This document shows, piece by piece, positions 10,587 to 33,218 of a stretch of 50,850 nucleotides of DNA. Position 1 is the stretch's first letter, and the number at the start of each line of letters is the position of its first letter. The notes beneath the pieces were generated by a model. That model had not been told where the DNA came from. It did not search any database and saw nothing but the letters and a program-made list of their open reading frames with translations. Source of the stretch: a virus; IMG/VR virus record IMGVR_UViG_3300027733_000072, positions 1 through 50,850 of that record; one strand, 5' to 3'. Made by a program: the position numbers and the translations under genes.

Positions 10587-11656
10587 GGTATATAAAAGAA
10601 TATAATGAATATCACCCAAATGAAGATACGGTTAAGAGATGGTGTGACTATTTAGATAATAATTATCCAATCAAACATGATAGTGATAAATTTATAGTGA
10701 TAGATGATAAATCATATTTTTTAACTGGAATTTTATTTAATAAAGGTAGATTGGTCAATAAAATATTTTCGGATATATTCTATTCAGATAAAATGAGTGG
10801 TTCGAAAATAGATAGACCAAGTTTGAGAAAGGCTATTAAAAATTGGGTTGATATAAATAGTGATAAATCCGTAAATGAAAATTTAGATAAATTAAATTTT
10901 AAGCCTATTATAGAAAGTTTAAGTAATCAAAAAAAAGAATACTACTATCGAATATCAGCTCCTAAATATAATGAATCGGTTGAATATGATGAAAATCCAT
11001 ATAATATGTTAAATAAAATTCGCAATTTAATTTCACCGAGTAATCCAATTTATAAATCAGTAAATAACGATGATAATGTAATATCATTTACTGTTAATAA
11101 AAAGGTATTAGATGATTATCCTGATCGAATGCGTGGTGATGATTTAAGCATTAAGTTTATAAAGGATGAATATTTTAGAGTAAAATATATTAGTAGAAAT
11201 GCTTTTAACTTTAAGTACTTCGAGTGTGACCAATTTGAAGGTCTTATTCAGTTACTTAAAGATATGGGATTAAAATTAAATGAAAGAGTTATGGAATCTA
11301 AATTAGATAGACCAAATTATAAAAAATTGGATATTGATGGATTTATAGTATATCAAGGAAAAGACGCTAAATCAAACGATTATGTGACATTTGAATTATC
11401 AGATGATGAAGACTATTGGTTACATGCTCATAACTTCCCAGGATCACATTTATTAATAAAAATAAAAGATAAATTACCACAAATTGAAACTATTAAAAAA
11501 GTAGCTGAACTCGCTGCTAAAAACTCAAAAGCTCCTAATGGAGATGTTGTAGTAGTTTGGTGTAAAAAGAAATTTGTAAAAAAGGAAATATCAATGAATA
11601 TTGGTCAAGTAAAAGTTGATTACATTAATTCAAATAAAATAACTATTGTAAAATGA
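10583..11656 (+). CDS. NFACT-R (DUF814, RqcH-type) domain protein
   Basis: A 357-residue protein. Residues about 245-357 form an NFACT-R domain: GKDAKSND (259-266; family GRN/K-x-x-QND), YWLHAHNFPGSHLLI (278-292; family DLWLH...PGSH), AAKNSKAPNGDVVVVW and GQVKVDY near the end. In bacteria this domain is part of RqcH, which binds obstructed 50S subunits and recruits tRNA-Ala for C-terminal Ala tailing. The NFACT-N and coiled-coil parts of RqcH are absent; residues 1-240 are an unrecognised domain starting MRYIKEYNEY, which fits the head-targeting pattern. The last 20 codons are duplicated at the end of the next gene, the mark of a homing-endonuclease insertion. The tmRNA lies 3.2 kb downstream. 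Confidence 0.82.
   Translation: MRYIKEYNEYHPNEDTVKRWCDYLDNNYPIKHDSDKFIVIDDKSYFLTGILFNKGRLVNKIFSDIFYSDKMSGSKIDRPSLRKAIKNWVDINSDKSVNENLDKLNFKPIIESLSNQKKEYYYRISAPKYNESVEYDENPYNMLNKIRNLISPSNPIYKSVNNDDNVISFTVNKKVLDDYPDRMRGDDLSIKFIKDEYFRVKYISRNAFNFKYFECDQFEGLIQLLKDMGLKLNERVMESKLDRPNYKKLDIDGFIVYQGKDAKSNDYVTFELSDDEDYWLHAHNFPGSHLLIKIKDKLPQIETIKKVAELAAKNSKAPNGDVVVVWCKKKFVKKEISMNIGQVKVDYINSNKITIVK
11594..11656 (+). repeat. Recoded 3' end of NFACT-R gene, copy 1
   Basis: Encodes MNIGQVKVDYINSNKITIVK. The same peptide with substitutions is encoded at 12562-12627. Synonymous changes are frequent, so the DNA is more diverged than the protein. Confidence 0.7.
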
Positions 11657-18515: not shown

Positions 18516-20099
18516 TTAACTACATTCTGGACAATCTACTCTACCTGATCCGTCACAATTATTACATTCTTCTCTACAATTTCCTCCGCAATTATCACAG
18601 TTATTTCTACCGTTACCACCACACTCATCACATTCTTTCTTACCTTCACCATCACAAGATGTGCATTCAATTTTACCTTTACCATCACAGTCTGAGCAAT
18701 CATCATCACCATCTTTTCCGGTGCCATCACAAGATGAACATTCTTCTTCTCCTTCACCATCACAACTTGAACAATCTACTTTACCATGTCCATCACATTC
18801 ACCACATTCAATATCTCCATCACCATCACATTCTGAACATGGGAAATCACCATCACCTTCACAATCTGGACAATCTACTCGATTATCCCCACCACAATAG
18901 TCACACTCATCACTATTAGAATAACCACCACCGGTGTCTTCTAATAAATAGTAATCACCCATTGATTCGGTAGATAATGTTCCACTATCTGGATTATAAT
19001 ATTTAAGAGTATCTAAATAAGGATATTTACGATACCCACCTTTACCAACTTTAACCACTAATGTTCCCATTCTAACAACTGAACCATCTGGTGAAACCAT
19101 ATCATTACTAGTCATGTGATTGTTATTTGGCTTATAGTACCAACCTTTAGACTTAGCGTATAATCTAAACAACTCAACATCAGACTCATTGTGTGTGTAG
19201 ATTCTATCCATATAAGTAATTCCTTCAGGTGATTTTAATTTCCAAACTAAAGCTCTACCTTTTATCTTTTGACCATCTTCTGTTTTGAGTATTAATAATT
19301 CGCAAGAATCTTGATTACTTGTATAAATCTCAAAGAAACTTGATGATACACCAGACATACAAGATCCACTTAAAGTGCCTTTATTTCTCCCTAATTCATA
19401 ATTATTATAGTTATACCAATGAGCAATATCATCACCTTTTACTAATTCAAAATATCTAAAAACATCATTCATTTTTTCAATTTCAGCTTTGAAAAGGTTA
19501 ACAAATTTTTCTATATCACTATCTGTAAAAGTAGCACCACCGGCTGTTAAGAGACCTTTAATTCCTCTACCAATTCTTATTTTCTGACGACCTTGTGTAA
19601 ATGGTAATTTACTTACATCTTCATATTTAATTTTTTCCTGGTTGATAACTGATATACCATCTGGAAATTGTATTTTAAGATATGTTTTTCCAGATGATGG
19701 TCCAACTGCTTTCGATAAAACCTCACCTTTTGTTCCTACTTCTGGTCTGTACATTCTATCACCAGTTGGTTGATAGTCTAATAAGTTGAATATTGCTGCA
19801 TTCGATGGACCGTGTGTTAATATACCACCATCGCCATTATAAATAGCAAACTTTTCTAAATTTTCAGGACTTAATATTTGTTGAGCTCTTCTATCTGGTA
19901 TAAAAGAAATTTGTTCTTTATCATCAGATACATCAATATAGTTATTAGCTACAGTTAAGTCTTTACTTTCAATATCTTGTAAAGCTTTAGCTATTGGAGA
20001 ATCTATTTCTTTGAGTAAATTCTTAAATTTATCAGAATAAATCAAAGTAGATTCTAATAATAACGATTCAAATAAAAAGTCTTTGTATTTCTTTAGCAT
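18516..20099 (-). CDS. Large phage protein of the GTL-x-SCM family with long DnaJ-like cysteine array
   Basis: A 527-residue protein. MLKKYKDFLFESLLLES is a head-targeting-like start. Residues about 14-200 contain the module shared with the proteins at 12637, 22639 and 30966. Next comes the family core VKGDDIAHWYNYNNY, GTLSGSCMSG, FEIYTSNQD, RALVWKL and YMDRIYTHNESD. The C-terminus holds twelve CxxC motifs, mostly in the C-x-x-C-x-G-x-G form of the DnaJ zinc finger, which normally has four. The core may be enzymatic (conserved W-Y, S-C-M, R-A-L-x-W, D-R-I-Y) but no known fold is recognised. Probably a packaged, zinc-binding protein. Confidence 0.75.
   Translation of the reverse strand: MLKKYKDFLFESLLLESTLIYSDKFKNLLKEIDSPIAKALQDIESKDLTVANNYIDVSDDKEQISFIPDRRAQQILSPENLEKFAIYNGDGGILTHGPSNAAIFNLLDYQPTGDRMYRPEVGTKGEVLSKAVGPSSGKTYLKIQFPDGISVINQEKIKYEDVSKLPFTQGRQKIRIGRGIKGLLTAGGATFTDSDIEKFVNLFKAEIEKMNDVFRYFELVKGDDIAHWYNYNNYELGRNKGTLSGSCMSGVSSSFFEIYTSNQDSCELLILKTEDGQKIKGRALVWKLKSPEGITYMDRIYTHNESDVELFRLYAKSKGWYYKPNNNHMTSNDMVSPDGSVVRMGTLVVKVGKGGYRKYPYLDTLKYYNPDSGTLSTESMGDYYLLEDTGGGYSNSDECDYCGGDNRVDCPDCEGDGDFPCSECDGDGDIECGECDGHGKVDCSSCDGEGEEECSSCDGTGKDGDDDCSDCDGKGKIECTSCDGEGKKECDECGGNGRNNCDNCGGNCREECNNCDGSGRVDCPECS
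18525..18905 (-). repeat. Tandem coding repeats for CxxCxGxG units
   Basis: Near-periodic DNA of about 24-39 bp units (CATCACA, GTCCATCACA and similar on the plus strand), each encoding one C-x-x-C-x-G-x-G unit of the gene at 18516. Expanded by local duplication; coding, not CRISPR. Confidence 0.75.
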
Positions 20100-20101
20100 T
20101 T

Positions 20102-21085
20102 TTAAATTTCACTTTTTAACCAGTCGTAAACTTGGTTTATATCTTCTTTTGCAGCAGCCATATGGTCTTCAGCCCAATCATGTCCATTTTCTAATAATTC
20201 ATCTATCACATCTCTATCCATTTCCAACATTTCTTCACAACACTTAGAAATGTTTTTAAGATTAGCAAAGAACATATAATTGTTACCACCACCGTGCTCT
20301 ACACCACTAACATCTAAATGTTCATTTAACCCTTTATTCATTAAAAAGTTATAAACATGACTAACTAATTCTTTAGTTACTGATATATGGTCTTCAGCCC
20401 AATTATGACCCTCATTTAATAGACTATTTACTTGTTCTTCTGGATACTTTGATAATTCACAAGACAATCTATGAACTGTTTGTAGATTACCAAAAAACAT
20501 ATATGATTTAACATCTTCATTATTTTCATAACTAACCATTTCATCACTATAATCAACATCAGATGAACAAGTACAATCTTCGCATCCACAAGGACATCCC
20601 ATGTCACCAGTACAATCATCACAACATCCACACCCACCTTCAATTTCATCTTCCATTGGTGTATCAACTTCCATATTTTTATTTAATTGTGGAATTTGTG
20701 GATTATCAACAAAACCAGCTCCGAAAGCTTCAAATGATTTGATTATCTTTGATTCTTTAACTTCTGTGTTGTTTTGAAATTTATGATTAGGATTTACTTC
20801 ATCATCGGCAATTTTAAATTTATGAGATGGTTCTTTAACATCACCTAGTGAGTCAATTTTATCATTTACCTCATCTTTAGATAAGGTGTCCATTTTATGT
20901 GTAACTTTATTATACTTCATCTTAGTTAAATTTGGTAAATTATGGACATTATCCTCATTATCCATAAATGAACGTTTAACATCACCTAACTCTTTCTTTT
21001 CAGCACCAGCATTTGCGGTGAAATCACTAAAATGTTGTATTCTAATGTTTGGAGTTTGATAGTTTTGTGTATTGTCTTTTCTCAT
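20102..21085 (-). CDS. Phage protein with cysteine cluster and duplicated YMFF...GH-W-A-x-DH domain
   Basis: A 327-residue protein. Residues 1-150 are polar and low in complexity. Then a dense cysteine cluster (GGCGCCDDCTGDMGCPCGCE, followed by DCTC) suggests metal binding. The C-terminal half has two repeats of about 60 residues, each beginning YMFFGNL/YMFFANL and containing LLNEGHNWAEDH or LLENGHDWAEDH and a closing VYNFL/VYDWL. This repeat occurs singly in small proteins of T4-type phages, function unknown. It ends two bases before the start of the 527-residue gene, so they form an operon. Confidence 0.75.
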   Translation of the reverse strand: MRKDNTQNYQTPNIRIQHFSDFTANAGAEKKELGDVKRSFMDNEDNVHNLPNLTKMKYNKVTHKMDTLSKDEVNDKIDSLGDVKEPSHKFKIADDEVNPNHKFQNNTEVKESKIIKSFEAFGAGFVDNPQIPQLNKNMEVDTPMEDEIEGGCGCCDDCTGDMGCPCGCEDCTCSSDVDYSDEMVSYENNEDVKSYMFFGNLQTVHRLSCELSKYPEEQVNSLLNEGHNWAEDHISVTKELVSHVYNFLMNKGLNEHLDVSGVEHGGGNNYMFFANLKNISKCCEEMLEMDRDVIDELLENGHDWAEDHMAAAKEDINQVYDWLKSEI

Positions 21086-21124
21086 AGTTATTGAGTTATT
21101 TTATATATGTATATATTATTTTTA

Positions 21125-21817
21125 TTATTTCAACTTTTCATCTAATATTTTGGCAATATTACTACCAATGATAAAGTGTATATTATTTAATGTATCATTT
21201 GTAACAGTTTTATATTCATCTAAGAATCTAAATTGAAATTTATAAGTATCAATATCATCATCATTTTTTCTTTCTATTTTAGAAATAGATAACTGAATAT
21301 TATAGTTATTATTAATATTGATATCAAAATCAAATGTGGTTTTATCACAAGGTTGAGTTTTGAATTTAGGATCATAAATAACATCAAAAATACTGTAATC
21401 TGTAATCTTAGCTCTTTTCATATAGTAATTCAAGAACATAGCCGGTGCTTCGATAAAATCGGAAAGAATTTGAATATCTTCACCAAAATCATTAGATTTA
21501 ATAATATCTTCAATTTTATTTTTTAAGTCTATTACATTTTTGAACTCAACTTTATGGTATATACAATTGATATCATATAAATAAATAAAAGAATCATCAA
21601 TGATATTTTGTTTTTTTAAATCAGTCTTAAAAATAAATTTGGTGTGTATAATTAAAGTATCTTCAATAGAAAGATTATGTATTGATATTACTAATTTATA
21701 AAAGTCTTCATTTTCCGACATTTCATAAACAGTTTCAATAGAGCTAACTTTACCCTCTTCTTCTTCAAAAGTGAGTTTGAAGGTTTCTTCAATTTCTTTT
21801 ATCTTAATATTTGACAT
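21125..21817 (-). CDS. Hypothetical protein
   Basis: A 230-residue acidic protein starting MSNIKIKEIEETFKLTF. Beta-rich first half, helices near KIEDIIKSNDF, and a repeated strand pattern with many Asp and Asn. No motif, signal or membrane segment. Two bases from the nucleotidyltransferase gene, so likely cotranscribed with it. Confidence 0.65.
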   Translation of the reverse strand: MSNIKIKEIEETFKLTFEEEEGKVSSIETVYEMSENEDFYKLVISIHNLSIEDTLIIHTKFIFKTDLKKQNIIDDSFIYLYDINCIYHKVEFKNVIDLKNKIEDIIKSNDFGEDIQILSDFIEAPAMFLNYYMKRAKITDYSIFDVIYDPKFKTQPCDKTTFDFDININNNYNIQLSISKIERKNDDDIDTYKFQFRFLDEYKTVTNDTLNNIHFIIGSNIAKILDEKLK

Positions 21818-21819
21818 AA

Positions 21820-22584
21820 TTATTTAAATTGTTTATCATATGCTTTTCTTCTTACATCCATAATTCTTTGGATATATCCATTTCTTCTCAATAACTTGAA
21901 AACTAAATTCTCAATTGAGTATTCTCCTTCTCTATCTAAACCAGCTTGTCTACCATCTTTAACTTTTTTCCAAACTTTTTTAAGTTTTTTCATCAATTCA
22001 TCATATTCAACACCTGATTCATAATCCTCTTCTAATTCTTTAACCGTAGTCATAATATCAGAAGCTTTCTTTCTAATTAAATCTTCATCTGGTGTAAAAT
22101 CTTCTTTGCTTGGTTTCTTAATCCACTCATCATTTAATAATGAGTAAACACCACCCATTCTACCACCTTCAATAGCACCGTGTAGATCTTCCTCATCTTG
22201 AACAGCAATTTCCACATCAAATCCTTTGATTATAATATCATGTTGTTCATTCCAAACTTTCTTTGCGTAATCTACCATTTTTTCAACTAATTCGTGGTCT
22301 TCATTGATATCATCAAATTTAACAATGATGTGTAAATCAACATCACTATATTCTGACCAATTGTAGTTACATAACGAACCACAGAAAGCAATATCTACAA
22401 TTTTAGCAGATAGTTCTAATCCTTCATAAAAGTCTTCACCAATTCTAATTAGTTGTTCTCTAATCTCTTCATTCAATTTATCATTATCATCCCAAACATC
22501 ACGGTTTAAGTCATCTTTAAGATAAAAAGATTTAATTGGTTCAAATTGTGCTTGAACAAAATATTCATTGAACTTTTTAAGCAT
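21820..22584 (-). CDS. Nucleotidyltransferase (Pol beta superfamily) with head-targeting-like N-terminus
   Basis: A 254-residue protein. CGSLCNYNWSEYSDVDLHII has G69, S70, D81 and D83, the GS-x(10)-D-x-D signature of Pol-beta-type nucleotidyltransferases; FDVEIAV (D123/E125) can supply the third acid. Such enzymes add nucleotides to RNA, antibiotics or proteins. The start MLKKFNEYF fits the head-targeting pattern, so it may be injected with DNA. The C-terminal helical region is rich in Lys and Arg. The gene is read from a palindromic promoter region shared with the gene at 22639. Confidence 0.8.
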   Translation of the reverse strand: MLKKFNEYFVQAQFEPIKSFYLKDDLNRDVWDDNDKLNEEIREQLIRIGEDFYEGLELSAKIVDIAFCGSLCNYNWSEYSDVDLHIIVKFDDINEDHELVEKMVDYAKKVWNEQHDIIIKGFDVEIAVQDEEDLHGAIEGGRMGGVYSLLNDEWIKKPSKEDFTPDEDLIRKKASDIMTTVKELEEDYESGVEYDELMKKLKKVWKKVKDGRQAGLDREGEYSIENLVFKLLRRNGYIQRIMDVRRKAYDKQFK

Positions 22585-22600
22585 AGTTTCTCGGTGGATA

Positions 22601-22622
22601 ATTTTAATATATATATTAAAAT
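22601..22622. promoter_or_regulatory. Palindromic, bidirectional late-promoter-like element
   Basis: A perfect 22 bp palindrome: ATTTTAATATA followed by its reverse complement. It presents the TTTTAATATATA element on both strands between two divergent genes (starts at 22584 and 22639). Confidence 0.6.
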
Positions 22623-22638
22623 CAATACACTTAAAATT

Positions 22639-24651
22639 GTGATTAAAGGTTATTATCAGTTTTTATTGGAATCTGTTCTATTTACTTCTGGATATTTCGA
22701 AGAAATATTGAAGAAAATTGACGATAAAATCGCCCAAGATTTTTTAGAGTTAGTTAATAAAGACATTAAAACTCAGTATAATGCCATAGACCTATCAGAT
22801 ACTAATGATAGATTACATTTTGTATCAGATAATCAATTTCAAAATAAAATAAAATCTGGTATTAATCCTTTAGATTTATTCTCGGATAAAAATAATAAAA
22901 CTAATATATCCAGAATTATTAGACAGATTCTCAAAGATAATGGTAAAGAATACACTGATGCCGAATTAAGTAAGTTTGTTGATAAATTCAAAGCTGCTTA
23001 TAATACACTTAAAGCTAAAAAGGAAAAGAAAGACCCAATCAGATTGGTTAAAGGTGAGGATATTAGATTTTGGTATTTAGGTGATAATTATTGTGAAAAA
23101 ACATCAAGTGGATATGGCACACTCGGTAAGTCTTGTATGAGATATGAAGAGTGTCAAAAATACTTAGATATTTATGTTGAAAATCCTAGTGTTTGTAATC
23201 TTTTAATATTAACTAAATTTGAAGATGGTGAAGAAAAACTTGTGTCAAGAGCTTTACTTTGGCAAACTGATAAAGGACCATATTTAGATAGAATTTATTA
23301 TACCGATTCTTCTGAAGAAGAAATGATGTTGAATTGGGTTAAGGAAAAAAATTGTGAATTATCCTTTAAGAAATATTCTGGTAGACTTATAGTGCAGTTA
23401 GAGAGTGATACTAAAGAATATAAATATTATCCGTATATGGATACTATGCCTTATTATTATACAGTGAATAAAAAGCTGTATAATTATGAGCCGAGTGTTG
23501 ATGTTAAAAGAGAACTTTTATACTGTCAAGATACTGGTGGTGGTTTTGATAGGCAGAATCTAGTTTATTGTGAGTGGATAGATGAATCTTATCCAGAAGA
23601 AGAAGTAATTTGGTCAGAGTATCATCAGTCTCACTTACCTATGAATAATTGTTGTTGGAGTGAATATCATAATTCAGAAATATGTGATGGAGATAGTGTT
23701 TATTCTGAAACTTTATCAGATAACTTACCAAAAGATGACTCTGTTGAAGTTTATATAAGTTCAAGAGATACAGATTGGTTTCCAAAAGATCATGATTTAA
23801 TTGCTGAAGATGAAATGGATGGTAGTTGGTACTTGAAATCACTTATGAAAGAAATAAATGGTAGATGGTATCATAAAGACTATGTGAAATGTGTTTATGA
23901 GGTTAAAAAATCTGATATATCAAGATATAAAGAAATATTCTCAATTGATGATGATGTTGAAAATGAAGATTGTATAGCTACTTCTGATCTTATTAAGTTC
24001 TATCAATTAAGTATAAAAGATGATTCTACTCAATTTATTTTAATAGATGATTATTATAAAAAAGTTTATATGAACGTGCATTATGTTGAAATGTTAAAAT
24101 CATTAGAAGAAAAAGAAAGTTCTGATGATGTTATAGAAGAATTGGAATCTGCAAACTTTAGACTAAAAGATAGTCAAAATTTCTATTCTAATAATAATAC
24201 AATAATTGATAATGGTGGATTTAGTAATGCACTAAAAATATTTAATGACTCTTTGGATATTAAAGTAAAAGGCAATAACACTATATTTGATTTGGCATTT
24301 TTATCAGCTGAGAATATTTATAGAAATCATGTTCAATCAAATTTACTAAAAGTACAAATTAAAAAAATATTTGAGAATTCACTAATTGAATTTTGTGAAG
24401 GTGTTAGTGAGTATAATACAAAATATCCAAGTTTTGATAAAGATAGATTATCAAAATTCATTAAGATGTTTGAGATAGTATTTCCAGAATATAATGATGA
24501 AGATGAAATCAATTATTATCTACAGATGACTTCTGCTACCTTAGAATATTCCTTTAGATTAATCTATAATGAAATAAAAGGTAAAGAATTTTCAATTATT
24601 CAGGCACTTAGATATTTTACTAAAAATCCAAACAAACTACCAGTAGAATAA
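22639..24651 (+). CDS. Large phage protein of the GTL-x-SCM family
   Basis: A 670-residue protein, GTG start chosen because it follows the promoter element and yields MIKGYYQFLLES, matching the other family members. Shared N-terminal module (FTSGYFEEILKKID, AIDLSDTND, YTDAELSKFVDKFK) and core (VKGEDIRFWYLGDNY, GTLGKSCMRYEE, IYVENPSVCNLLIL, RALLWQT, YLDRIYYTD). The middle contains beta-hairpin repeats with SEYHQSHLP, SEYHNSEI and similar. The last 200 residues are helical. No known enzyme family recognised. Expressed from a late-type promoter with a head-targeting start, so probably a packaged protein. Confidence 0.75.
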   Translation: MIKGYYQFLLESVLFTSGYFEEILKKIDDKIAQDFLELVNKDIKTQYNAIDLSDTNDRLHFVSDNQFQNKIKSGINPLDLFSDKNNKTNISRIIRQILKDNGKEYTDAELSKFVDKFKAAYNTLKAKKEKKDPIRLVKGEDIRFWYLGDNYCEKTSSGYGTLGKSCMRYEECQKYLDIYVENPSVCNLLILTKFEDGEEKLVSRALLWQTDKGPYLDRIYYTDSSEEEMMLNWVKEKNCELSFKKYSGRLIVQLESDTKEYKYYPYMDTMPYYYTVNKKLYNYEPSVDVKRELLYCQDTGGGFDRQNLVYCEWIDESYPEEEVIWSEYHQSHLPMNNCCWSEYHNSEICDGDSVYSETLSDNLPKDDSVEVYISSRDTDWFPKDHDLIAEDEMDGSWYLKSLMKEINGRWYHKDYVKCVYEVKKSDISRYKEIFSIDDDVENEDCIATSDLIKFYQLSIKDDSTQFILIDDYYKKVYMNVHYVEMLKSLEEKESSDDVIEELESANFRLKDSQNFYSNNNTIIDNGGFSNALKIFNDSLDIKVKGNNTIFDLAFLSAENIYRNHVQSNLLKVQIKKIFENSLIEFCEGVSEYNTKYPSFDKDRLSKFIKMFEIVFPEYNDEDEINYYLQMTSATLEYSFRLIYNEIKGKEFSIIQALRYFTKNPNKLPVE

Positions 24652-24666
24652 TATAAATAAAAAATA
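24652..24666 (+). promoter_or_regulatory. TATAAATAAAAAATA element
   Basis: The 15-mer starts 27 nt before the ATG at 24679. It overlaps the end of the previous gene's stop region. Same element as at 5881 and 33695. Confidence 0.5.
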
Positions 24667-24678
24667 TTATTTTATAAA

Positions 24679-25203
24679 ATGAATAAACCTGGAGTTTTTA
24701 ATCCCTTTCCGGATAGAAAAGAAATTCAACAAAATTATGTTAATAGCTTAGTTGAACAAGCTAAGTCAATTGATTTAGATAAAGTTGATTATAGTGGTGT
24801 TGATTTTAAACCAAGAAATGAAATAGTAGAGGCTCAGAAAGTTTACTTTTGGATTAGAGTATATCTAAATGAGGAAGTAGATATTAAACCAGATACAAAT
24901 GTCAATATTAAATATGTTGTTTCTGGTGAAACATTAGAAACCAAATTTATTTGTTATGCTAAGAAAGGAGCAGAGAAAGACATGGATGAAAATGTTATCA
25001 ACTATAACCCAGAAGATGATAGAAGAGTGCTTTGTCTAATGATTGACTCTGAAAGAATTGATAAAAATAGTGATGATATTCCTTTTATTAGAAGCTTATT
25101 CCGTGTTGGTAAATATTATGAGGCACAGATTCTAAGAAACTCTGATTTAATGGTCACTGACTCAAGTGGTAATAAGTTAGATTTTTTCGATATTGATTTC
25201 TAA
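24679..25203 (+). CDS. Hypothetical protein
   Basis: A 174-residue protein starting MNKPGVFNPFPDRKEIQQ. The middle has beta strands (VYFWIRVYLNEEVDIKP, NIKYVVSGETLETKFICYAKKG) suggesting an OB-like or SH3-like barrel; the end is acidic (NKLDFFDIDF), a feature of single-strand-binding and clamp-interacting proteins. Next to the DNA polymerase gene, so a replication role is possible but unproven. Followed by a clear terminator. Confidence 0.65.
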   Translation: MNKPGVFNPFPDRKEIQQNYVNSLVEQAKSIDLDKVDYSGVDFKPRNEIVEAQKVYFWIRVYLNEEVDIKPDTNVNIKYVVSGETLETKFICYAKKGAEKDMDENVINYNPEDDRRVLCLMIDSERIDKNSDDIPFIRSLFRVGKYYEAQILRNSDLMVTDSSGNKLDFFDIDF

Positions 25204-25206
25204 AAC

Positions 25207-25237
25207 TCAAACCCTCTCTAAAAAAGAGGGTTTTTTA
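25207..25237 (+). terminator. Rho-independent terminator
   Basis: AAACCCTCT and AGAGGGTTT form the stem around a short A-rich loop, followed by T residues, just after the stop at 25203. Confidence 0.85.
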
Positions 25238-25297
25238 TTTTAAAACATGAACAATATGCAGATTTCATGATATAAAAACAAAAGTAAAAATAAATTA

Positions 25298-26791
25298 ATG
25301 TTAGTAGATACTCAATATTTAGGCAATAGTAAGCGATTAGTAGTAAGTTATGTTGATAAAACCGGCGATATAAAACTAAAATATTACGAATGGGAGAATC
25401 CCAAAAAATATATTGTTTGTGATGATGATGATAAAGACCGTCATCCAACATTCAAATCTTGGGATGGTAAGAATGTTAAACACGAGGAAGTGAATACTCC
25501 AGATAGATATGCTATCTATGAGTTCTTAGATTCTCTTCCAGAAAAGGAAAAAGAAGAGATATTTGAGTATAATCTTCCAAATATCTACTTTGTCGATATT
25601 GAGACTGAGATTGTTGATGGTTTTCCTGATGCTGAGACAGCTCCCACAAAAGTTCTATCTATTTCAATTGTATATGATGATAAAATCATTCTACTTGGAT
25701 TAAAAGATATGCCAGAAGATATGCAACAGCGTATTAAAGATAATACTAATAAGTACTTTGCTAAGTTTGGTTCTAATTATAAACTAAAATATATCAAATA
25801 TGAAGATGAATTTGATATGATGTATGCTTTCTTTTATAAGATGATTCCAAAAATGCCACTCATCACTGGTTGGAACTTTATTAACTATGACTGGGTTTAT
25901 TTGGTAAACCGTGCTAGAAAACTTAAAAAGTATGTAAATGGTAGAGAGTATGATATTAATCCAGCAGTTGCTTCTTTAACAAAAAGATTAAATAAGGTTT
26001 GGATGTCAAATGAAGAAATGCCAGCTCATAGAATGATTTTTGACTATATGCAGTTGTATGAAATCTGTGACACATCAATTAAAGTAAAAGAATCATCTTC
26101 ATTGGATTTCGTGTCTAGTAAGTTAGTTGGGGTTGAAAAGATTAAATATACAGGTTCACTACAAAGATTGTATGAGGATGACTTTGAAACATTTATGTAC
26201 TATAACGCGGTTGACTCCGTGTTAGTACAAAAGATACATGAATCCAGAAACTATATCTCAATTATTTATGCGATTTCATCACTTGCGCAAATAAAGATTG
26301 TGGATGTTATCTCACAGATGAATAATGCACTTGGTTCTTTAGCTATTACAGAGGGTGTTCTCAGAAATAGATTTCGTGAACAAGAAAATATAGTTTTATT
26401 TAGAGGTGATAAAGAGCCTGGTGAAAATGTTGGTATTGCTGGTGGTTGGGTAAAAGACCCGGTGACTGGTATGAATCAGTGGGTAGTTTGTTATGACTTC
26501 GCTTCTCTATATCCTACAACACAAAGACAATTCTTTATAGCTCCGGAGACATTTGTTGGAATACAAAATCCAAATAATAAAGAATATTGTGATAATGGTA
26601 TTCAAATTGATAAATCAAAACACGTTGTTTGTGTTAATGGTGTTGTATTTGAAAAGAGAAATTCACCAACTCTTAAAATGTTGGAAGATGTTTATGCTGA
26701 TAGAAAGAAGAATAAGAAGATTATGATGAAGAAAAAGGATGAGTTGAAACTTGTTCTAGATGAGATTAAAATGTTAGAAGCTGAGTTATAA
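25298..26791 (+). CDS. DNA polymerase, family B (gp43-like), N-terminal half
   Basis: A 497-residue protein with a complete 3'-5' exonuclease: Exo I FVDIETE (D100, E102), Exo II GWNFINYDW (D198) and Exo III YYNAVDSV (D306). Motif A is CYDFASLYPTTQRQF (D400). The protein then ends after a helical, lysine-rich segment at the fingers; motif B (K-x3-NS-x-YG) and motif C (DTDS) are absent and no frameshifted remnant follows, because the convergent HAD gene begins at the next base. The other half must lie elsewhere, as in T4-type Aeromonas phages with split gp43. No catalytic activity expected without that partner, except exonuclease. Confidence 0.88.
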   Translation: MLVDTQYLGNSKRLVVSYVDKTGDIKLKYYEWENPKKYIVCDDDDKDRHPTFKSWDGKNVKHEEVNTPDRYAIYEFLDSLPEKEKEEIFEYNLPNIYFVDIETEIVDGFPDAETAPTKVLSISIVYDDKIILLGLKDMPEDMQQRIKDNTNKYFAKFGSNYKLKYIKYEDEFDMMYAFFYKMIPKMPLITGWNFINYDWVYLVNRARKLKKYVNGREYDINPAVASLTKRLNKVWMSNEEMPAHRMIFDYMQLYEICDTSIKVKESSSLDFVSSKLVGVEKIKYTGSLQRLYEDDFETFMYYNAVDSVLVQKIHESRNYISIIYAISSLAQIKIVDVISQMNNALGSLAITEGVLRNRFREQENIVLFRGDKEPGENVGIAGGWVKDPVTGMNQWVVCYDFASLYPTTQRQFFIAPETFVGIQNPNNKEYCDNGIQIDKSKHVVCVNGVVFEKRNSPTLKMLEDVYADRKKNKKIMMKKKDELKLVLDEIKMLEAEL

Positions 26792-27460
26792 TTATTTAAC
26801 TTTAATTCCCTCAAATTCAACCTCTGGTAGTTCTTTTTTAACAATCTCAACAACTTTGTTGACCCATTTAGAGTTATCATCATAAAATTTAACTTTTGTA
26901 AAACCGGTATCTTTAATTAACTTAACAATAGTTTTTCCTTTCCAAATAGCAACCTTATCACCAGATTCATCACCTAATGGGTAACAAAAAAGTCCGTGAT
27001 TTGGTTGTTCTAATCCAAAGTCATCTAAGACTTTTTCAATTTTAGATTTCATTATTTTCATTCTACCAGTTACAATAGCTTTGTTTTCAACTTGATTGTA
27101 AAACTCAGATAGTTTACTTGGAGATTTTGGAAGACTTAAATCGCTAAAATAGAACTTATTTGGTGCTACTAAGTAAACACGTTTTTTCTTTCTAACCCAG
27201 TTTCCCTTTATAGGGATTTTTTCATCTGGATCATTTACATATAGTCGACCATTTTCAATTTTCAAATCTCTAAATGTGACATTAATTTGATTGACTGATT
27301 TTTGTAGTAAATTTCCAATTGTTTCATTTTCTTTAAGATATTCAATTGCTAATTCTTCAAATCTTGGGCTATCAACAATGGTATCATCAAAATCAAAGAC
27401 GTATAAGGTTTCGTCTTTTCTATTTTTACCAAAATCTTCAAACATTTGTAGATATTTCAT
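26792..27460 (-). CDS. HAD-type hydrolase with head-targeting-like N-terminus
   Basis: A 222-residue protein. MKYLQMFEDFGKN is the targeting-like start, followed at once by the HAD motif I VFDFDDTI (D23, D25, T27), IVTGR as motif II and VKFYDDNSKW as motif IV. It resembles small phage HAD phosphatases. The ATG at 27460 follows TTAATATATAC by a few bases and is preferred over the upstream ATG at 27541, which would add a hydrophobic stretch and overlap the divergent helicase start. Convergent with the polymerase gene with zero spacing. Confidence 0.8.
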   Translation of the reverse strand: MKYLQMFEDFGKNRKDETLYVFDFDDTIVDSPRFEELAIEYLKENETIGNLLQKSVNQINVTFRDLKIENGRLYVNDPDEKIPIKGNWVRKKKRVYLVAPNKFYFSDLSLPKSPSKLSEFYNQVENKAIVTGRMKIMKSKIEKVLDDFGLEQPNHGLFCYPLGDESGDKVAIWKGKTIVKLIKDTGFTKVKFYDDNSKWVNKVVEIVKKELPEVEFEGIKVK

Positions 27461-27509
27461 ATTTGTATATATTAATAAAACTAATTCAAATACTTTCCAT
27501 ATAAGATTT

Positions 27510-29174
27510 ATGTCGTTAAAATCAGATATCAATAGATACACACCCCGTCAAGAACAAACTGATGCTCTTAATTTCATAGTCAAAACTAAGACTGAGAAAC
27601 CAGATACTAAATTTTTTCTTCTTAATATGCCCGTTGGTATTGGTAAGTCACATTTGTCTATGATGATATCAGATTGGTACACATCAAAGGTTGATGTTGG
27701 TTCAAAAGTTGATATTATCACTGCTGGTAAAATTCTACAAGACCAATATGATGATACTTATGAGTCTATCAATAATCTAAAGGGTAAAGAAAACTATGAG
27801 TGTGCTCAATATGCTTGTTCTTGTGCAAATGGTAAAGAGTTCAATAGATTAAATAAGACTAGTTGTGATTTTTGTCCATATGATGATGCTAAAGGTGGAT
27901 ATATTGGTGGTAGAGTTAGTTTAACTAATTTCTATTTATATTTGATATATGCTCTCTATAATAATGGAGTTATGGATCAAAGAAGCTCTAATGTACTTAT
28001 TGTAGATGAAGCACATGACTTTGATGATGTGATGAGTGATTTCGTTTCTATTAAAATAACAGAAACTACTGTTAAAAAATTGAAGTTTACCAATGAGGAT
28101 GATATCTTAAAGAAACTTAAAAAAGTTGGAACTATTACTCAGTATATTACTTTCTTAGAGTATCTAAAAGGTGAAGTTATTCAAACCATTGATGATGTTG
28201 ATAAGTCTATGCAGGGTGGTAGAAATATTAAACAAGATAAAAGAGATTTAAGAATATCTAAGATAACTGGTGTTGGTGGAAATAGTGATGTTAAGTTAAT
28301 GCAGGTTATAAGTGACTTAAAACAATATCAATTAAAAATTGACCTTTTTCTAAAAGAATACAAAGAGAATCCACACAATTGGGTACTTGAAACTTATTTT
28401 AATGAAAAAACAGACCAAAAAGAATTATCATTAGAGCCAATTTGGGCTTATGATTACTTAGATAAGTATGTTTGGAGTAAGTATGATATGGTTATCTTAA
28501 TGTCCGGTACTATTTTAGATAAAAGATTATTTTCGGAATTGAATGGTTTAGATGAAGAAAAAACAGCTTATTATTCTGTTCCTTCTCCTTTCCCAGTTGA
28601 AAATAGACCTATTTACTATATGCCATTGGGTAAAATGTCTTATGCTAAAAAAGAAGAAACATTTAAGAACTATGTTACTTATTTACATAAGCTATTGAAA
28701 AAGTATGAAGGTAAAAAAGGAATCATTCACACCAATTCTTTTGAGTTATCAAATTGGATTCAAAGAGGTGTAGAGAATCCAAGATTAGTATTTCATGAAT
28801 CCAGTAATAAAGATGAAATGTTGAGAAAGCATTTTGAAACAGAGGATCCAACAGTTTTTGTTAGCCCATCTGTTGGAACTGGAGTTTCATTTGACCATGA
28901 TAGAAGTAGATTTCAAATTATAGCTAAAATTCCGTATCCTAGCCTCGGTTCACAAAAAAACAAAATGCGACAGAAAAATAATCCAGAGTGGTATGCCTGG
29001 AAAACTGTTTGTGGTTTACTACAAATGACTGGTCGTTCGGTGAGAAGCAAAACCGATTTTGCAGATACGATTATTATAGATGGATCCTTTTCTGATATCT
29101 TAAAGTATAGTTCACACTTAATACCGGGATGGGTACAAGTAGCAATTAAACGGGTAGATGTTAAAGTTGGGTAA
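27510..29174 (+). CDS. SF2 helicase of the XPD/DinG type with iron-sulfur cysteines
   Basis: A 554-residue helicase. Walker A is NMPVGIGKSHLS (K46), and DEAH is at VLIVDEAHD (166-169). Between them lie cysteines C98, C103/C105, C119 and C122 (YECAQYACSC, SCDFCPY), spaced as for the 4Fe-4S cluster of XPD/DinG 5'-3' DNA helicases. C-terminal motifs include SPSVGTGVSFDHD (V) and QMTGRSVRS (VI, the arginine finger motif). Likely used in phage replication or repair. The start at 27510 was chosen because the region upstream is the reverse strand of the HAD gene. Confidence 0.88.
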   Translation: MSLKSDINRYTPRQEQTDALNFIVKTKTEKPDTKFFLLNMPVGIGKSHLSMMISDWYTSKVDVGSKVDIITAGKILQDQYDDTYESINNLKGKENYECAQYACSCANGKEFNRLNKTSCDFCPYDDAKGGYIGGRVSLTNFYLYLIYALYNNGVMDQRSSNVLIVDEAHDFDDVMSDFVSIKITETTVKKLKFTNEDDILKKLKKVGTITQYITFLEYLKGEVIQTIDDVDKSMQGGRNIKQDKRDLRISKITGVGGNSDVKLMQVISDLKQYQLKIDLFLKEYKENPHNWVLETYFNEKTDQKELSLEPIWAYDYLDKYVWSKYDMVILMSGTILDKRLFSELNGLDEEKTAYYSVPSPFPVENRPIYYMPLGKMSYAKKEETFKNYVTYLHKLLKKYEGKKGIIHTNSFELSNWIQRGVENPRLVFHESSNKDEMLRKHFETEDPTVFVSPSVGTGVSFDHDRSRFQIIAKIPYPSLGSQKNKMRQKNNPEWYAWKTVCGLLQMTGRSVRSKTDFADTIIIDGSFSDILKYSSHLIPGWVQVAIKRVDVKVG

Positions 29175-29175
29175 T

Positions 29176-29206
29176 AAAAAAACCACTCATATGAGTGGTT
29201 TTTTTT
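29176..29206. terminator. Bidirectional terminator
   Basis: AACCACTCATATGAGTGGTT is a perfect palindrome flanked by A on the left and T on the right, between the convergent helicase and the gene at 29205. Confidence 0.85.
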
Positions 29207-29468
29207 ATTTTGTTATTGGATCTTTTTTATCTGGTGTATAATCTTGTTTATATGGCTCCCTTTTGAAACTAACACCGTGTTTTTGTTTTGTCTTACAGGA
29301 TTTACATCCACAATCACATTCTTCTACAACACAATTACATTCTGTACAAGGAACACCAATTCCTATAGTATTAGCTGCATCAGAGTCTTCACCAAATTGG
29401 TCTAAGAAGTCTTTAGTTTCATCTTCGGTTGACTTAGAAAAACTCTCAAAAGTTCTTAGATGTTTCAT
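29205..29468 (-). CDS. Small cysteine-rich protein with head-targeting-like N-terminus
   Basis: An 87-residue protein. MKHLRTFESFSKS is the targeting-like start. Cysteines cluster in VPCTECNCVVEECDCGCKSC, probably binding zinc. The tail is basic and polar. Its start shares a base with the stop of the next minus-strand gene, which has the same start type, so the two form a unit of small packaged proteins. Confidence 0.65.
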   Translation of the reverse strand: MKHLRTFESFSKSTEDETKDFLDQFGEDSDAANTIGIGVPCTECNCVVEECDCGCKSCKTKQKHGVSFKREPYKQDYTPDKKDPITK

Positions 29469-29761
29469 TACTTTTTCTTTCTAGCTTCAATTGCTTTTCT
29501 CAATCCTTCTGGAAGTTTCTTTTGAGCTGCGGTTAATTTGGCAGGCTTTTCTGACTTACTATCTTTCTTTTTGTCAGCAGCTGCTTTTTTCATAGACTCT
29601 TTCTTATTACCGTCTTTATCTAAGTCTAAGAAATCTGGCTTAGCCTTTTTAGCTTCATTTGCTTTTTCAGCTTCGTCACATTTACATTCAGATAGTTTGC
29701 AATCACATTCTTTGCACAATTCTTCTTGTTTGTAGTCTTCAAATAACTTTAAGTATTTCAT
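29468..29761 (-). CDS. Small basic protein with head-targeting-like N-terminus
   Basis: A 97-residue protein. MKYLKLFEDYKQEE is the targeting-like start with E at the cleavage place; CKECDCKLSECKC follows, and the rest is rich in Lys and Ala (SMKKAAADKKKDSKSEKPAK), resembling a histone-like or T4 internal-protein-like DNA-condensing tail. TTTTTAATATATA lies upstream on the same strand. Confidence 0.7.
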   Translation of the reverse strand: MKYLKLFEDYKQEELCKECDCKLSECKCDEAEKANEAKKAKPDFLDLDKDGNKKESMKKAAADKKKDSKSEKPAKLTAAQKKLPEGLRKAIEARKKK

Positions 29762-29803
29762 GTTTTTTTACTTGTTTTTTATATAACTATATATATTAAA
29801 AAT

Positions 29804-29995
29804 TTAATTCAATATTCTATCACAAGATGGACAATACACAACTGGTTTGCCATCTTTTAAGAAAAACTTTCTTTCGCATTGACCAATACATCTTTTAATG
29901 TCCTTTTTTTCAGGTCTTGCTTTTCTCTCAGGTCTTTCTTTTGGTTTTTCCGAATCACTATCCGGAAAGTTTTCAAATAATTTAATACGTTTCAT
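29804..29995 (-). CDS. Small zinc-ribbon protein with head-targeting-like N-terminus
   Basis: A 63-residue protein starting MKRIKLFENFPDSDSE. A basic linker (ERPERKARPEKK) leads to a zinc ribbon with CIGQCERKF and VVYCPSCDRIL (four cysteines in two CxxC-like pairs). The ATG at 29995 lies directly after TTAATATATATT on the minus strand, which is why it was chosen over the upstream start at 30040. Confidence 0.7.
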   Translation of the reverse strand: MKRIKLFENFPDSDSEKPKERPERKARPEKKDIKRCIGQCERKFFLKDGKPVVYCPSCDRILN

Positions 29996-30073
29996 TTTAA
30001 TATATATTAATAACAAAATGCACATTTTTATTAAAGTCAAAAATTAAAATGTGATAATTAATATATACTCAAT

Positions 30074-30964
30074 ATGTCTAAAATATTAAAATATAATCAG
30101 CACAAAGAGTCACTAAAAATGGCTGAAGAACTTATTGAAATGATTATTAATCCTAAGCTAAATGAGTCTGTTGATGATTCACATATTCAGAATATTCTTA
30201 AATCCTTATCAAGAGATTTGAAATTTAACTATAGTTTAGTTTTTACATTTGGTGCTGGAATTAGAGCAATGTATCCAGTTGTTGAAAATCTTATTAAAAA
30301 TGGTAATCTTAAAGTAGATTTGAATCCAGAGAATATAGTTTTATTAACTATTGCCGCTCTTGCAATTACTTATTTAGAAGAAAAGAATAATAAAGCTGGA
30401 GATGATATTGTAGAATGTCCAGACTGTAGTGGGTTAGGTTACATCGGTGAGGAAGAAGACGGAAGTGAAGAAGAATGTAAATCTTGCAGTGGTTCTGGAA
30501 CATTTAAGAGTGAAGTAACTAAGTCAGATGCGAGAACTATATTAGAAGAACTAAAATTAAGAGGATTTGGAAATGGAATTGTTAAAAAGTTAGTTTCTTG
30601 TTTCAAATCAATTGGTAATTTATTTAAGACTATTTTTAAGAATACTCCGTATATAATAAGTGGATTTTTAGATATGTTTGCTTATACAACTATTTTAATA
30701 CCATCAATGAATGCAATTAGTTGGATGATTGATAAGTATGACTTTAATATTGAAACACTTCCAATGAATTTTCTTTCTATTGGTGTTGGTGTTGGTACAT
30801 TTTTAGCAAAAAATGGGTTTAACTATTTAGTTACAAAACTAAAAGATAAACTACACATTAAAGTCAATAAAGATTTAGATAAACCTACTTTTGCTAGACC
30901 ATATGATATTAAAGATGGTGAGGGTGGAGACTTAGGTAAAAATACCCTAATAAAAGAACAGTAA
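30074..30964 (+). CDS. Membrane-associated protein with DnaJ-type zinc finger
   Basis: A 296-residue protein. The start MSKILKYNQHKES fits the targeting pattern. Hydrophobic segments lie near residues 53-70, 87-100, 190-215 and 230-250, so it is likely membrane-associated. Between them sit two DnaJ-like knuckles, CPDCSGLG (C115, C118) and CKSCSGSG (C135, C138). No J domain is present. TTAATATATAC precedes the start. If packaged, it could insert in the host envelope after injection; that is inference. The next gene follows after one base. Confidence 0.6.
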   Translation: MSKILKYNQHKESLKMAEELIEMIINPKLNESVDDSHIQNILKSLSRDLKFNYSLVFTFGAGIRAMYPVVENLIKNGNLKVDLNPENIVLLTIAALAITYLEEKNNKAGDDIVECPDCSGLGYIGEEEDGSEEECKSCSGSGTFKSEVTKSDARTILEELKLRGFGNGIVKKLVSCFKSIGNLFKTIFKNTPYIISGFLDMFAYTTILIPSMNAISWMIDKYDFNIETLPMNFLSIGVGVGTFLAKNGFNYLVTKLKDKLHIKVNKDLDKPTFARPYDIKDGEGGDLGKNTLIKEQ

Positions 30965-30965
30965 T

Positions 30966-33218
30966 ATGAAATTAGCGCGTAAATATAGTGATTATTTAGT
31001 ATATCAGTTGTTGGAATCTGTTATGGTTACATCAAGAGAATTTAAGAGCATTATACATGATATGCCAAATGGTGATAAGATAGCTGATATTTTATACAAT
31101 ATTATTGATGATAAAACTGATATTAAAACTAATTACAACCTAATTGATGTTGATAAAGAAAAGAATGATGAGGTTTCATTTTTACCAGATAATCAATATC
31201 AAAGGTTTATAGCTAAAGGTGATGATGTTACCACCAAAACTAAAGGTAATGCTAAAATTGGTAGAATGATTAATCAGATTCTTAAAGATAATGGACATAC
31301 TCAATTTAAAGATACTGATGTTGAAAAATTCATCAATAATTTCAAATCTACTTGGAATAAAAAACACGGTATTGTAAATCGTAAAACTGAAGTTGTTAAA
31401 GGTAAAGATATTTTAAAATGGTATGATGTGAGTAATTATAACTCTACCAATGGAACTTTAGGTAGTTCTTGTATGAGATATGAAAAGGTTAATCACTTTA
31501 TGAATATTTATGCTGAAAATCCAGATAAAATATCAATGGTAATTATCACAGATGAGGGTAAATTAGTAGCTAGAGCACTATTTTGGGTATTGGATGAAAC
31601 ATCACAAGGTAATAAAAAGTTTTACTTAGATAGAATCTATACAGAACAAGACTCTGATTTTCAATTCTTATTTGATTGGGTTGTTGATAACTTATGTAAT
31701 AAAGATCCAAAGATATTAGCATCACATAAAAATTCGGAAAATCAATATGAGATGAAAGTTTTCTTAAATAAAGTTAATTTTGAACATTATCCATATGCTG
31801 ATAGTTTCAATTATTTATATGAAAAGATTGATAAAGAAGGAAAAATTTTAGGTAATGGATATGTTTCCAATTTTAATCATTATGATGATAAAGATATCAC
31901 AAGAAACTATTCTGTATCTGAAATTAGAAATCATAATGAGGGATTACCAAGTAGATTAAGTCATGTATTCTCAGAAAAGCTAAATATATTTATTCGTAAA
32001 AGAGAAGCCATAAGAGACAGTGAAGCTGGGTGGATTCCAAAATCTATGTGTAAAAAATGTGAATTTTTGGATGAGTGGATATATCAAGATAATGCAGTTT
32101 GGTCAGAATCAATGCAAGATTGGATTGATAAAAGACAAGCGGTAGATACTAAAGAATTTGGATTAATACATAGAGATGCAATAATTAAAGTTGCAACTAA
32201 ATATATTGGTGATTATTTACATCCAATTGACTTTATGTCGAAATTAGAAAGTGGTGTTAATCTATTTGAAATAGAAACAAAGTTGAAGTCTAATGATTGG
32301 AAGAGACCAGAGTATAGACTTGGTGGTGAAAGATATTACAGTGATGATTTAGTGGTAAAGGATATTTGGAATGAATGGCAAATTAAACAAGGATGTTTTG
32401 AACTTTTTGATTGTGGTCAATATGATGATGTTATGCCAAAAGTTGGCAACTTCACTGGATTGGTAAAAGAAAAAAACGGCAAAGCATATCTTCTTAAAGA
32501 AGATGCTGTTTTATTTGGATTGACTCCTGGTAATAGTGATAAATGGATTAGTGTAGTTGATCTTAAATCATTTTATGAAACTTTAAACTATACGGAGTTT
32601 ATGAAATTTGTAGATGCTTCGGATATTGACCAATCTACTAAAGATTCAATTATTGAGACTAAAACAAAGTTTCATGAGTATTGGTTAGAAAATTCATCTG
32701 GTTATACAAGAAGATTTGAAATTTATAGTAAGATGAGTGGTGTAGATGGTACTGATTTATATTTGAAGCTTTTTGATTTAGTTTGGAAAAAATTTATGAC
32801 AATTGATGAATCTATTAATCTTGAAATCCTTTCAAGATTTGAAAATTACAATTTAACCGATGGCCAAGTACAACTAGTGTATGAAATATTATCTGGATTA
32901 ACATTAGCTTTTATAATTTATGATGATACTAGTGACTCAAGAGGTATGGTTAATGATTGGTTGAAATCAGAAAAGGCTACCAATTTCAGAGATAGAATTA
33001 GTAATATACGTGACCGTGATGGTGATATATCAGGCATCTACTTTTCAGATTTTACTGAAATTTGTAGAAAGATATTTAGAAATTATATTGATGATTTACG
33101 TGGAGATATTAGAGTTGTTTCAGATGAAATGGCTAGAGAGTATAACATAAGTAGAGACGGATTTATGTCATTTATTAGTAATTCAATTTCACTTAGAGAT
33201 TTAAATCCTTACATATGA
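30966..33218 (+). CDS. Large phage protein of the GTL-x-SCM family
   Basis: A 750-residue protein, largest of three paralogues. MKLARKYSDYLVYQLLES is the targeting-like start. Shared module: VTSREFKSIIHDMP, LIDVDKEKNDEVSF, FKDTDVEKFINNFK. Core: VKGKDILKWYDVSNY, GTLGSSCMRYEKV, IYAENPDKISMVII, RALFWVL, YLDRIYTEQDSDF. The C-terminal half differs from the paralogues and contains CKKCEFLDEWIY and repeated WIPK/WSES hairpins. Function unknown. The stop overlaps the next start as ATGA. Confidence 0.75.
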   Translation: MKLARKYSDYLVYQLLESVMVTSREFKSIIHDMPNGDKIADILYNIIDDKTDIKTNYNLIDVDKEKNDEVSFLPDNQYQRFIAKGDDVTTKTKGNAKIGRMINQILKDNGHTQFKDTDVEKFINNFKSTWNKKHGIVNRKTEVVKGKDILKWYDVSNYNSTNGTLGSSCMRYEKVNHFMNIYAENPDKISMVIITDEGKLVARALFWVLDETSQGNKKFYLDRIYTEQDSDFQFLFDWVVDNLCNKDPKILASHKNSENQYEMKVFLNKVNFEHYPYADSFNYLYEKIDKEGKILGNGYVSNFNHYDDKDITRNYSVSEIRNHNEGLPSRLSHVFSEKLNIFIRKREAIRDSEAGWIPKSMCKKCEFLDEWIYQDNAVWSESMQDWIDKRQAVDTKEFGLIHRDAIIKVATKYIGDYLHPIDFMSKLESGVNLFEIETKLKSNDWKRPEYRLGGERYYSDDLVVKDIWNEWQIKQGCFELFDCGQYDDVMPKVGNFTGLVKEKNGKAYLLKEDAVLFGLTPGNSDKWISVVDLKSFYETLNYTEFMKFVDASDIDQSTKDSIIETKTKFHEYWLENSSGYTRRFEIYSKMSGVDGTDLYLKLFDLVWKKFMTIDESINLEILSRFENYNLTDGQVQLVYEILSGLTLAFIIYDDTSDSRGMVNDWLKSEKATNFRDRISNIRDRDGDISGIYFSDFTEICRKIFRNYIDDLRGDIRVVSDEMAREYNISRDGFMSFISNSISLRDLNPYI

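Follow-up and report, generated by a model that had tools for sequence, protein, structure and literature searches.

Phage SCM proteins: a superfamily with a predicted GNAT-like fold, a PepT-like peptidase partner and, in some members, capsid-targeting-like N-termini

The virus record IMGVR_UViG_3300027733_000072 of IMG/VR, analysed here over its whole length of 50,850 bases ("the window"), encodes three large paralogous proteins, which we call A (18516 to 20099, minus strand, 527 residues), B (22639 to 24651, plus strand, 670 residues from a GTG start) and C (30966 to 33218, plus strand, 750 residues). On the evidence of their sequences and predicted models, they are members of a superfamily of phage proteins with a GNAT-like fold, recognisable by the motifs SCM, RA(L/x)W, (D)RxY and PYxD, for which we use the name "SCM". 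In several phage lineages the SCM gene lies beside a gene for a PepT-like peptidase, and some members in mega-phages begin with a peptide resembling the capsid-targeting peptide of phage T4 internal proteins. The combined reading, for which the arguments appear to us about evenly balanced, is that a GNAT-like transferase and the peptidase would act on the same substrate, the copies with the peptide being packaged and ejected. We found no description of the family, of its pairing with the peptidase, of its spread over unrelated phages or of the capsid-tagged expansion in mega-phages in the literature searched, which took in few subscription papers; the fold class and the principle of the tag are already known.

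Sequence and predicted fold of the three paralogues

A, B and C were all recovered as existing open reading frames (ORFs) in a check of the window. The longest frame of B opens at a TTG codon (22546); the in-frame GTG at 22639 is the better start, because the sequence MIKGYYQFLLE begins there and an AT-rich promoter-like stretch lies about 30 nt 5' of it. A sequence search with A against the window retrieved C (E-value = 3.5e-23) and B (E-value = 7.1e-21), which rules out a chance similarity. The alignment of the three sequences bears out the ordered motifs given in the preliminary description (VKGxDIxxWY..NY, GTLxxSCM, IYxxN, RALxW and (M/L)DRIY) and adds YPYxD as a further common motif. An N-terminal domain is also common to the three. 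The C-termini differ as had been described: a CxxCxGxG cysteine array in A, SEYH/WSEY hairpins in B and a mixed tail in C.

In C, the N-terminal domain (31026 to 31370, plus strand, residues 21-135), with a related region in some PepT-like peptidases, is followed by the GNAT-like core (31371 to 31886, residues 136-307) with SCM at 31467-31475, RALFW at 31572-31586, DRIY at 31629-31640 and PYAD at 31791-31802. The corresponding core of A (19068 to 19463, minus strand, residues 213-344) contains S246-C247, both invariant in the family, with M248 (19356 to 19364), R282-A-L-V-W286 (19242 to 19256; R and W invariant) and D298-R299-I-Y301 (19197 to 19208; R and Y invariant), the last on the strand preceding the helix that follows the coenzyme A (CoA) loop in GNATs; P360-Y-L-D363 (19011 to 19022; P and D invariant) lies further downstream. 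A also has an SH3-like insert (19617 to 19859, minus strand, residues 81-161; Z ~6 over 57 residues, root-mean-square deviation 2.4) and, judged by sequence, a DnaJ-type CxxCxGxG array (18522 to 18905, minus strand, residues 399-526), which gave a weak BSD2_CRD match under the cut-off. In B the conserved core runs from KGEDIRFWY to PYMD (23050 to 23442, plus strand; SCM 23131-23139, RALLW 23248-23262, DRIY 23287-23298), and WSEY/SEYH repeats, predicted from their sequence to form beta-hairpins, follow at 23563 to 23754 (plus strand). Similar repeats occur in phi38:1 gp037, the gut contig L123, KP34 gp10 and Nobby gp10.

The AlphaFold2 model of the C core, computed with 85 sequences, is confident (pLDDT 90, pTM 0.82). 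Residues 136-307 match GNAT chains with a best Foldseek E-value of 2.3e-4 and, by VIA-align, a best Z of 10.2 over 106 residues at 3.2 A; the PDB chains among the matches listed are GNAT-fold acyltransferases and relatives. The full-length model of A (pLDDT 82) contains the same GNAT-like region at Z ~6, a lower value because chain length lowers the score. The GNAT order beta1-alpha1-alpha2-beta2-beta3-beta4-alpha3-beta5 is present in the predicted models of both C and A. On the comparison of the core with ADP-ribosyltransferases, proteases and GNATs, proposed in the preliminary description, the structural search returned GNAT-type chains; ADP-ribosyltransferase and protease folds were set aside, although absence from these lists is no proof against other folds. 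We consider that the family very probably has a GNAT-like fold. The N-terminal domain (residues ~21-135), searched only as part of the larger model, gave no structural match, and a profile search of the PDB with the family returned only antibody light chains, by chance.

SCM proteins resemble the GNAT superfamily (e.g. 5u08, 7n1l, 3dsb) in the beta1-beta5/alpha1-alpha3 order, in shape and in a Z of ~10 over 106 residues, but they differ in having an extra N-terminal domain, an altered C-terminal half and other invariant residues. They also lack the Q/RxxGxG/A pyrophosphate loop (motif A, between beta4 and alpha3): a regular expression for it hit one of 119 sequences, downstream of the loop, and the family reads DRIYTxxDSD at this position. 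The matches listed in the curated-family profile searches, which included 85 members against Pfam, contained no GNAT model. Because the Q/RxxGxG/A loop is absent, we file the family as GNAT-like only and not as a GNAT acetyltransferase, and regard it as a putative GNAT-like transferase, the donor of which need not be CoA. The core has no Pfam, PHROG or NCBIfam match in profile searches, which supports its earlier characterisation as an undescribed family. The fold class is a well-known one; the family itself is unannotated and is without the motif typical of working GNATs.

Nine residues are invariant (C numbering: Y153, S168, C169, R203, W207, R223, Y225, P276 and D279), both in 64 members sharing less than 50% identity and in the set of 85 aligned members. 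Conservation is highest at S-C-M, whose cysteine is never replaced; no invariant histidine accompanies this cysteine in the alignment of the 64 members. The active site that had been suspected from conserved polar and aromatic residues gains support from their full invariance in such divergent members, together with the confident predicted fold, and we regard enzymatic activity of some kind as probable.

Relatives in other phages and the peptidase partner

Five records of uncultured mega-phages (634-735 kb) contain relatives by tblastn, as do the Cellulophaga phages phi38:1, phi40:1 and Calle; the match in the Thermus phage TSP4 was weak. A profile search of phage genomes, a check that had been suggested at the outset, matched four mega-phages 9, 18, 7 and 15 times, a few of the matches being partial or weak; as many as four family genes stand in tandem. 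The triplication first noticed in the window therefore stands as a count of three and understates the expansion, related mega-phages holding 7-18 copies. IMG/VR contributed 240 matching stretches, from which 79 loci were kept. Two scans of 84,980 species returned no cellular relative, with peptide patterns so poor that such an absence is not established.

Relatives, some of them putative, that bear the SCM/RA/RxY/PYxD signature are encoded next to a peptidase gene in phages of Klebsiella, Pectobacterium, Vibrio, Thermus (TSP4) and Cellulophaga and in crAss-like phages of the gut. A peptidase query matched 382 phage records, and the gene just 5' of the peptidase encodes 572 residues in Pectobacterium phage Nobby and 612 residues in Pseudomonas phage YMC11. 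A structural search of BFVD with the window model gave weak matches to proteins of these lengths from the same two phages (E-values of 5.7e-3 and 9.9e-3, respectively). SCM, R[AG], RxY and PYxD are common to the two proteins encoded beside the peptidase, to KP34 gp10, to its counterpart in Vibrio phage VP9 and to A, B and C. Profile comparison (hhalign) with the family gave 100% for Callevirus, 99.8% for TSP4 and 95% for gut contigs. The possible kinship of the podovirus branch (PHROG 6980 and 13313, with KP34 gp10 and Nobby gp10) is supported independently of profiles by the BFVD fold matches and by the peptidase neighbour. Members of these two PHROGs are like SCM in the SCM/R/RxY/PYxD signature, in WSEY-like hairpin tails and in the adjacent phrog_4191 peptidase; compared with A, B and C, they have other N-terminal regions, no tag and very low identity. 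The toxic Gp10 of Klebsiella phage fHe-Kpn01, a 69-residue protein (PMC7291057), was ruled out as a relative.

Records with the SCM gene and the peptidase gene number 231 and 230 for Klebsiella, 51 and 51 for Pectobacterium, 42 and 42 for Vibrio, 10 and 10 for Escherichia, 7 and 7 for Cellulophaga, 5 and 5 for uncultured phages and 4 and 4 for Shigella, tallies that are dominated by a few well-sampled genera; the pair occurs in about seven lineages besides the mega-phages. A study of PhiM1-like phages places both genes in their conserved early set (PMC6115819). The passages located in a proteome paper on Cellulophaga phi38:1 contained no data on gp037.

The peptidase adjoins the SCM gene in TSP4 (as a "metal-dependent hydrolase"), Callevirus (phi38:1 gp038), L242, gut crAss-like contigs, the gut contig L123, KP34, Nobby, YMC11 and VP9. 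The partner proteins are like the PepT-like peptidases of phrog_4191 and TIGR01883 in the metal-site motifs HxDT, GADDK and EE; the phage proteins score under the TIGR01883 equivalog cut-off, and some have phage-specific accessory domains. The window encodes two such proteins. One, of M20/M28/M42 type (4115 to 5209, minus strand, 364 residues; TIGR01883 E-value = 5e-11, phrog_4191 E-value = 8e-73), belongs to the same family as the recurrent partner. The other (12637 to 14280, plus strand, 547 residues; TIGR01883 E-value = 2e-8) has an N-terminal region weakly related to the N-terminal domain of A, B and C (profile E-value = 1.5e-3); its orthologue in the mega-phage LR745206 (W01; 202934-204289), located shortly 3' of the capsid gene, matches the same profile with an E-value of 2.5e-5. 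Mega-phages hold 4-8 peptidase copies. One peptidase of LR756504 (W04) has a cysteine array like that of A, one of LR756501 (W02) has hairpins like those of B, and one of W04 has a tag-like N-terminus. That family members and partner peptidases have accessory modules in common agrees, at the level of sequence, with a shared targeting.

Capsid-targeting-like peptides and head genes

The N-terminus of T4 IPIII reads MKTYQEFIAEA in the T4 record. Its positions 4 and 7 direct capsid entry, positions 8 and 10 govern cleavage, and gp21 cleaves after L/I-x-E (PMC9026906). The window proteins begin with MLKKYKDFLFESLLLES (A), MIKGYYQFLLES (B) and MKLARKYSDYLVYQLLES (C); in IPIII numbering, A and B fit an aromatic residue at 4 and 7, an aliphatic one at 8 and a glutamate at 10, and C does so approximately. 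With a slash at each putative cleavage site, the peptide of A is MLKKYKDFLFE/SLLLE/S (20052 to 20099, minus strand, residues 1-16, modelled with low pLDDT), that of B is MIKGYYQFLLE/S (22639 to 22671, plus strand), and that of C, MKLARKYSDYLVYQLLE/S (30966 to 31016, plus strand), has the cleavage-like site and not the strict tag.

Among 103 members of less than 70% identity, 60 have [YF]xx[FY][ILVM]xE ahead of the fold, against 0.13% of control windows from the same proteins, and 73 have [LIM]xE[SAGNK], against 5.9%; since the sample was drawn by similarity to the window proteins, 60/103 is no census of the tagged fraction. Applied genome-wide, the strict rule finds 25, 53 and 19 tagged ORFs in W01, W02 and W04, respectively, against means of 1.5, 2.0 and 1.7 in residue-shuffled sequences (maxima in 200 shuffles: 6, 5 and 7), and the aligned mega-phage tags read [YF]xx[FY][IL][NK]E[SA]. 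The same rule finds no tag in phi38:1. The tagged ORFs of the three mega-phages include unrelated proteins that by eye are DHH-like, Nudix-like and radical-SAM-like, and together they form a list of predicted capsid cargo.

A gp23-type capsid gene is present in four of four mega-phages related to the window, which is itself a fragment (E-values of 1e-22 to 1e-28), and a gene for a gp21-like S77 protease lies directly upstream of it as in T4 (E-values of 1e-4 to 4e-6). A profile search for S77 gave no match in phi38:1 or TSP4. The capsid N-termini of the mega-phages read INE/NAY, NVG or similar. The N-terminal cleavage site of T4 gp23 reads LTE/AEI, and the mega-phage sites therefore suggest the same cleavage rule. 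Taken together, the T4-type peptide and the presence of gp21/gp23-type head genes in related phages make it fairly likely that tagged copies are packaged in the head. This favours in part the view of the preliminary description that the paralogues are injected effectors; injection cannot be general, because the tag is missing from some paralogues in the same mega-phage genomes and from the relatives in Callevirus, Thermus phages and podoviruses.

The T4 late promoter TATAAATA was not found 5' of tagged genes. The element TTTA[AT]TATATA stands upstream of 15 of 25 tagged and 234 of 893 other genes in W01, of 25 of 53 and 209 of 931 in W02, and of 15 of 19 and 187 of 877 in W04, at about -13 or -30 from start codons in these upstream regions and in the window 5' of B. 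In W01, similar AT-rich stretches stand ahead of the capsid gene and the protease gene. The element is enriched and not tag-specific, for it also precedes non-virion genes such as that of a DnaB-like helicase.

Some other window genes have N-termini close to the tag. A protein with an NFACT-R RNA-binding domain (10583 to 11656, plus strand; Pfam E-value = 1.8e-11) begins with the tag-like MRYIKEYNEY; its W01 orthologue (202508-202894) begins with MIKKYKLFKEG and lies directly 3' of the capsid gene. Directly upstream of C, a 296-residue protein (30074 to 30964, plus strand) with hydrophobic helices and a CxxCxGxG stretch as in the array of A has the tag-like N-terminus MSKILKYNQHKES. A nucleotidyltransferase-like protein whose gene is transcribed divergently from that of B (21820 to 22584, minus strand; phrog_36119 E-value = 1.8e-40, weak MTPAP and SidM_N matches) begins with MLKKFNEYFVQAQFE, near the tag. 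Among the replication genes, an ORF like B-family DNA polymerases (25298 to 26791, plus strand, 497 residues) stops soon after the first catalytic motif; this polymerase may be split, because its W01 orthologue is equally short (513 residues).

Possible mode of action and alternatives

According to the combined reading, SCM proteins would most likely be enzymes that modify a protein or peptide of the host by transferring a group to it. C169, R203, R223, Y225 and D279 may build one active site, and the donor would be other than acetyl-CoA bound in the usual way: a differently bound acyl-CoA, or else an aminoacyl donor or an acyl carrier of the sort used by other GNAT-fold enzymes, FemX for example. 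The peptidase would act on the same substrate, either stripping the group or exposing an amine for modification. Small phages have both genes in the early/replication region, and their proteins would act once synthesised in the cell. The tagged copies of mega-phages would be made during head assembly and taken into the prohead core, clipped after L/I-x-E by the gp21-type protease and ejected with the DNA, active on arrival. The variable C-terminal modules, such as the cysteine array and the WSEY hairpins, probably select the target.

The FemX/FemA non-ribosomal aminoacyl transferases and MprF are GNAT-fold enzymes that use aminoacyl-tRNA. They are weak structural matches of low rank to SCM, no sequence relation with them was found, and we claim no membership. 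GNAT-fold domains in phage polyvalent proteins and Rac of phiKMV have been proposed to modify host proteins, some being injected (PMC5512222, PMC7824862); those proteins are described as RimI-like or acetylating, whereas SCM is without the CoA motif and is accompanied by a PepT-like peptidase. T4 IPI-IPIII and Alt resemble SCM in the propeptide determinants, in the L/I-x-E motif and in the several cargo proteins per phage; they differ from it in that the mature domains are unrelated, that SCM has 7-18 paralogues of one fold and that the presence of SCM in the virion is a prediction.

Several observations weigh against the combined reading. The absence of the CoA motif means that a transferase reaction is not assured. 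The strict tag is found on just 4 of 8 family members in W01, 8 of 18 in W02 and 1 of 15 in W04, and C fits it only approximately. The mega-phage protease matches are under the Pfam cut-off, so that their identification rests on synteny. Profile support for the podovirus branch is modest (hhalign 68.5%, E-value = 4.6e-5). Peptidase and family genes in mega-phages are mostly apart (within three genes of each other in 1 of 5, 2 of 5 and 0 of 7 cases), and their adjacency there is not significant, save marginally in W02 (p = 0.04). The peptidase of Thermus phage P23-45 (EU100883, 30704-31588) has no recognisable SCM neighbour.

SCM proteins could instead be ordinary intracellular enzymes that are never injected, their N-terminal peptide being another signal, for example for sorting to a replication compartment, or a shared leader aiding translation. 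Such an interpretation would accommodate the varied enzymes among the tagged proteins, the AT-rich element shared with non-virion genes, and the small-phage relatives, which act without a tag from early-region genes (PMC6115819). However, the peptide matches the four T4 positions governing targeting and cleavage, ends in the protease motif and precedes the fold; it is found in phages with gp21/gp23-type heads and not in phi38:1, and the replication enzymes of the window (the DNA polymerase at 25298 and a helicase at 33721) are without it. We judge this alternative unlikely.

The loss of the CoA loop in all members would suit catalytically dead GNAT-like binders, a scaffold for inhibitors or decoys to which the tails give specificity and in which the invariant residues are structural; T4 IPI, which inhibits restriction, offers a precedent for such binding (PMC5512222). 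Yet the cysteine, the two arginines, the aspartate and the tyrosine are invariant below 50% identity, mostly across phage families, a constancy rarely seen in scaffolds that the host drives to change, and the accompanying peptidase has apparently intact metal-site motifs, so that we hold such binders to be rather improbable. Another chemistry on the GNAT-like frame, for instance a cysteine-dependent hydrolase or ligase with the never-replaced cysteine of S-C-M as nucleophile, would agree with the missing motif A loop and is very unlikely, for no invariant histidine stands with that cysteine and the known cases found of this fold class do group transfer.

In a bolder and doubtful form of the combined reading, a phage-wide module of two enzymes, would reversibly tag host proteins or peptides: a GNAT-like transferase without CoA motif, its donor unusual and possibly aminoacyl-tRNA, and a PepT-like peptidase with the same substrate. 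Mega-phage heads would then deliver many versions of this module along with dozens of other proteins that carry the capsid tag. If the combined reading is true, a protein listed as hypothetical in more than 300 sequenced phage records would receive a likely fold, and would be linked to a peptidase whose annotation has for years given it no role. The tag would then be a sequence rule predicting head-carried proteins, by which unannotated mega-phage genomes may be turned into lists of predicted injected proteins.

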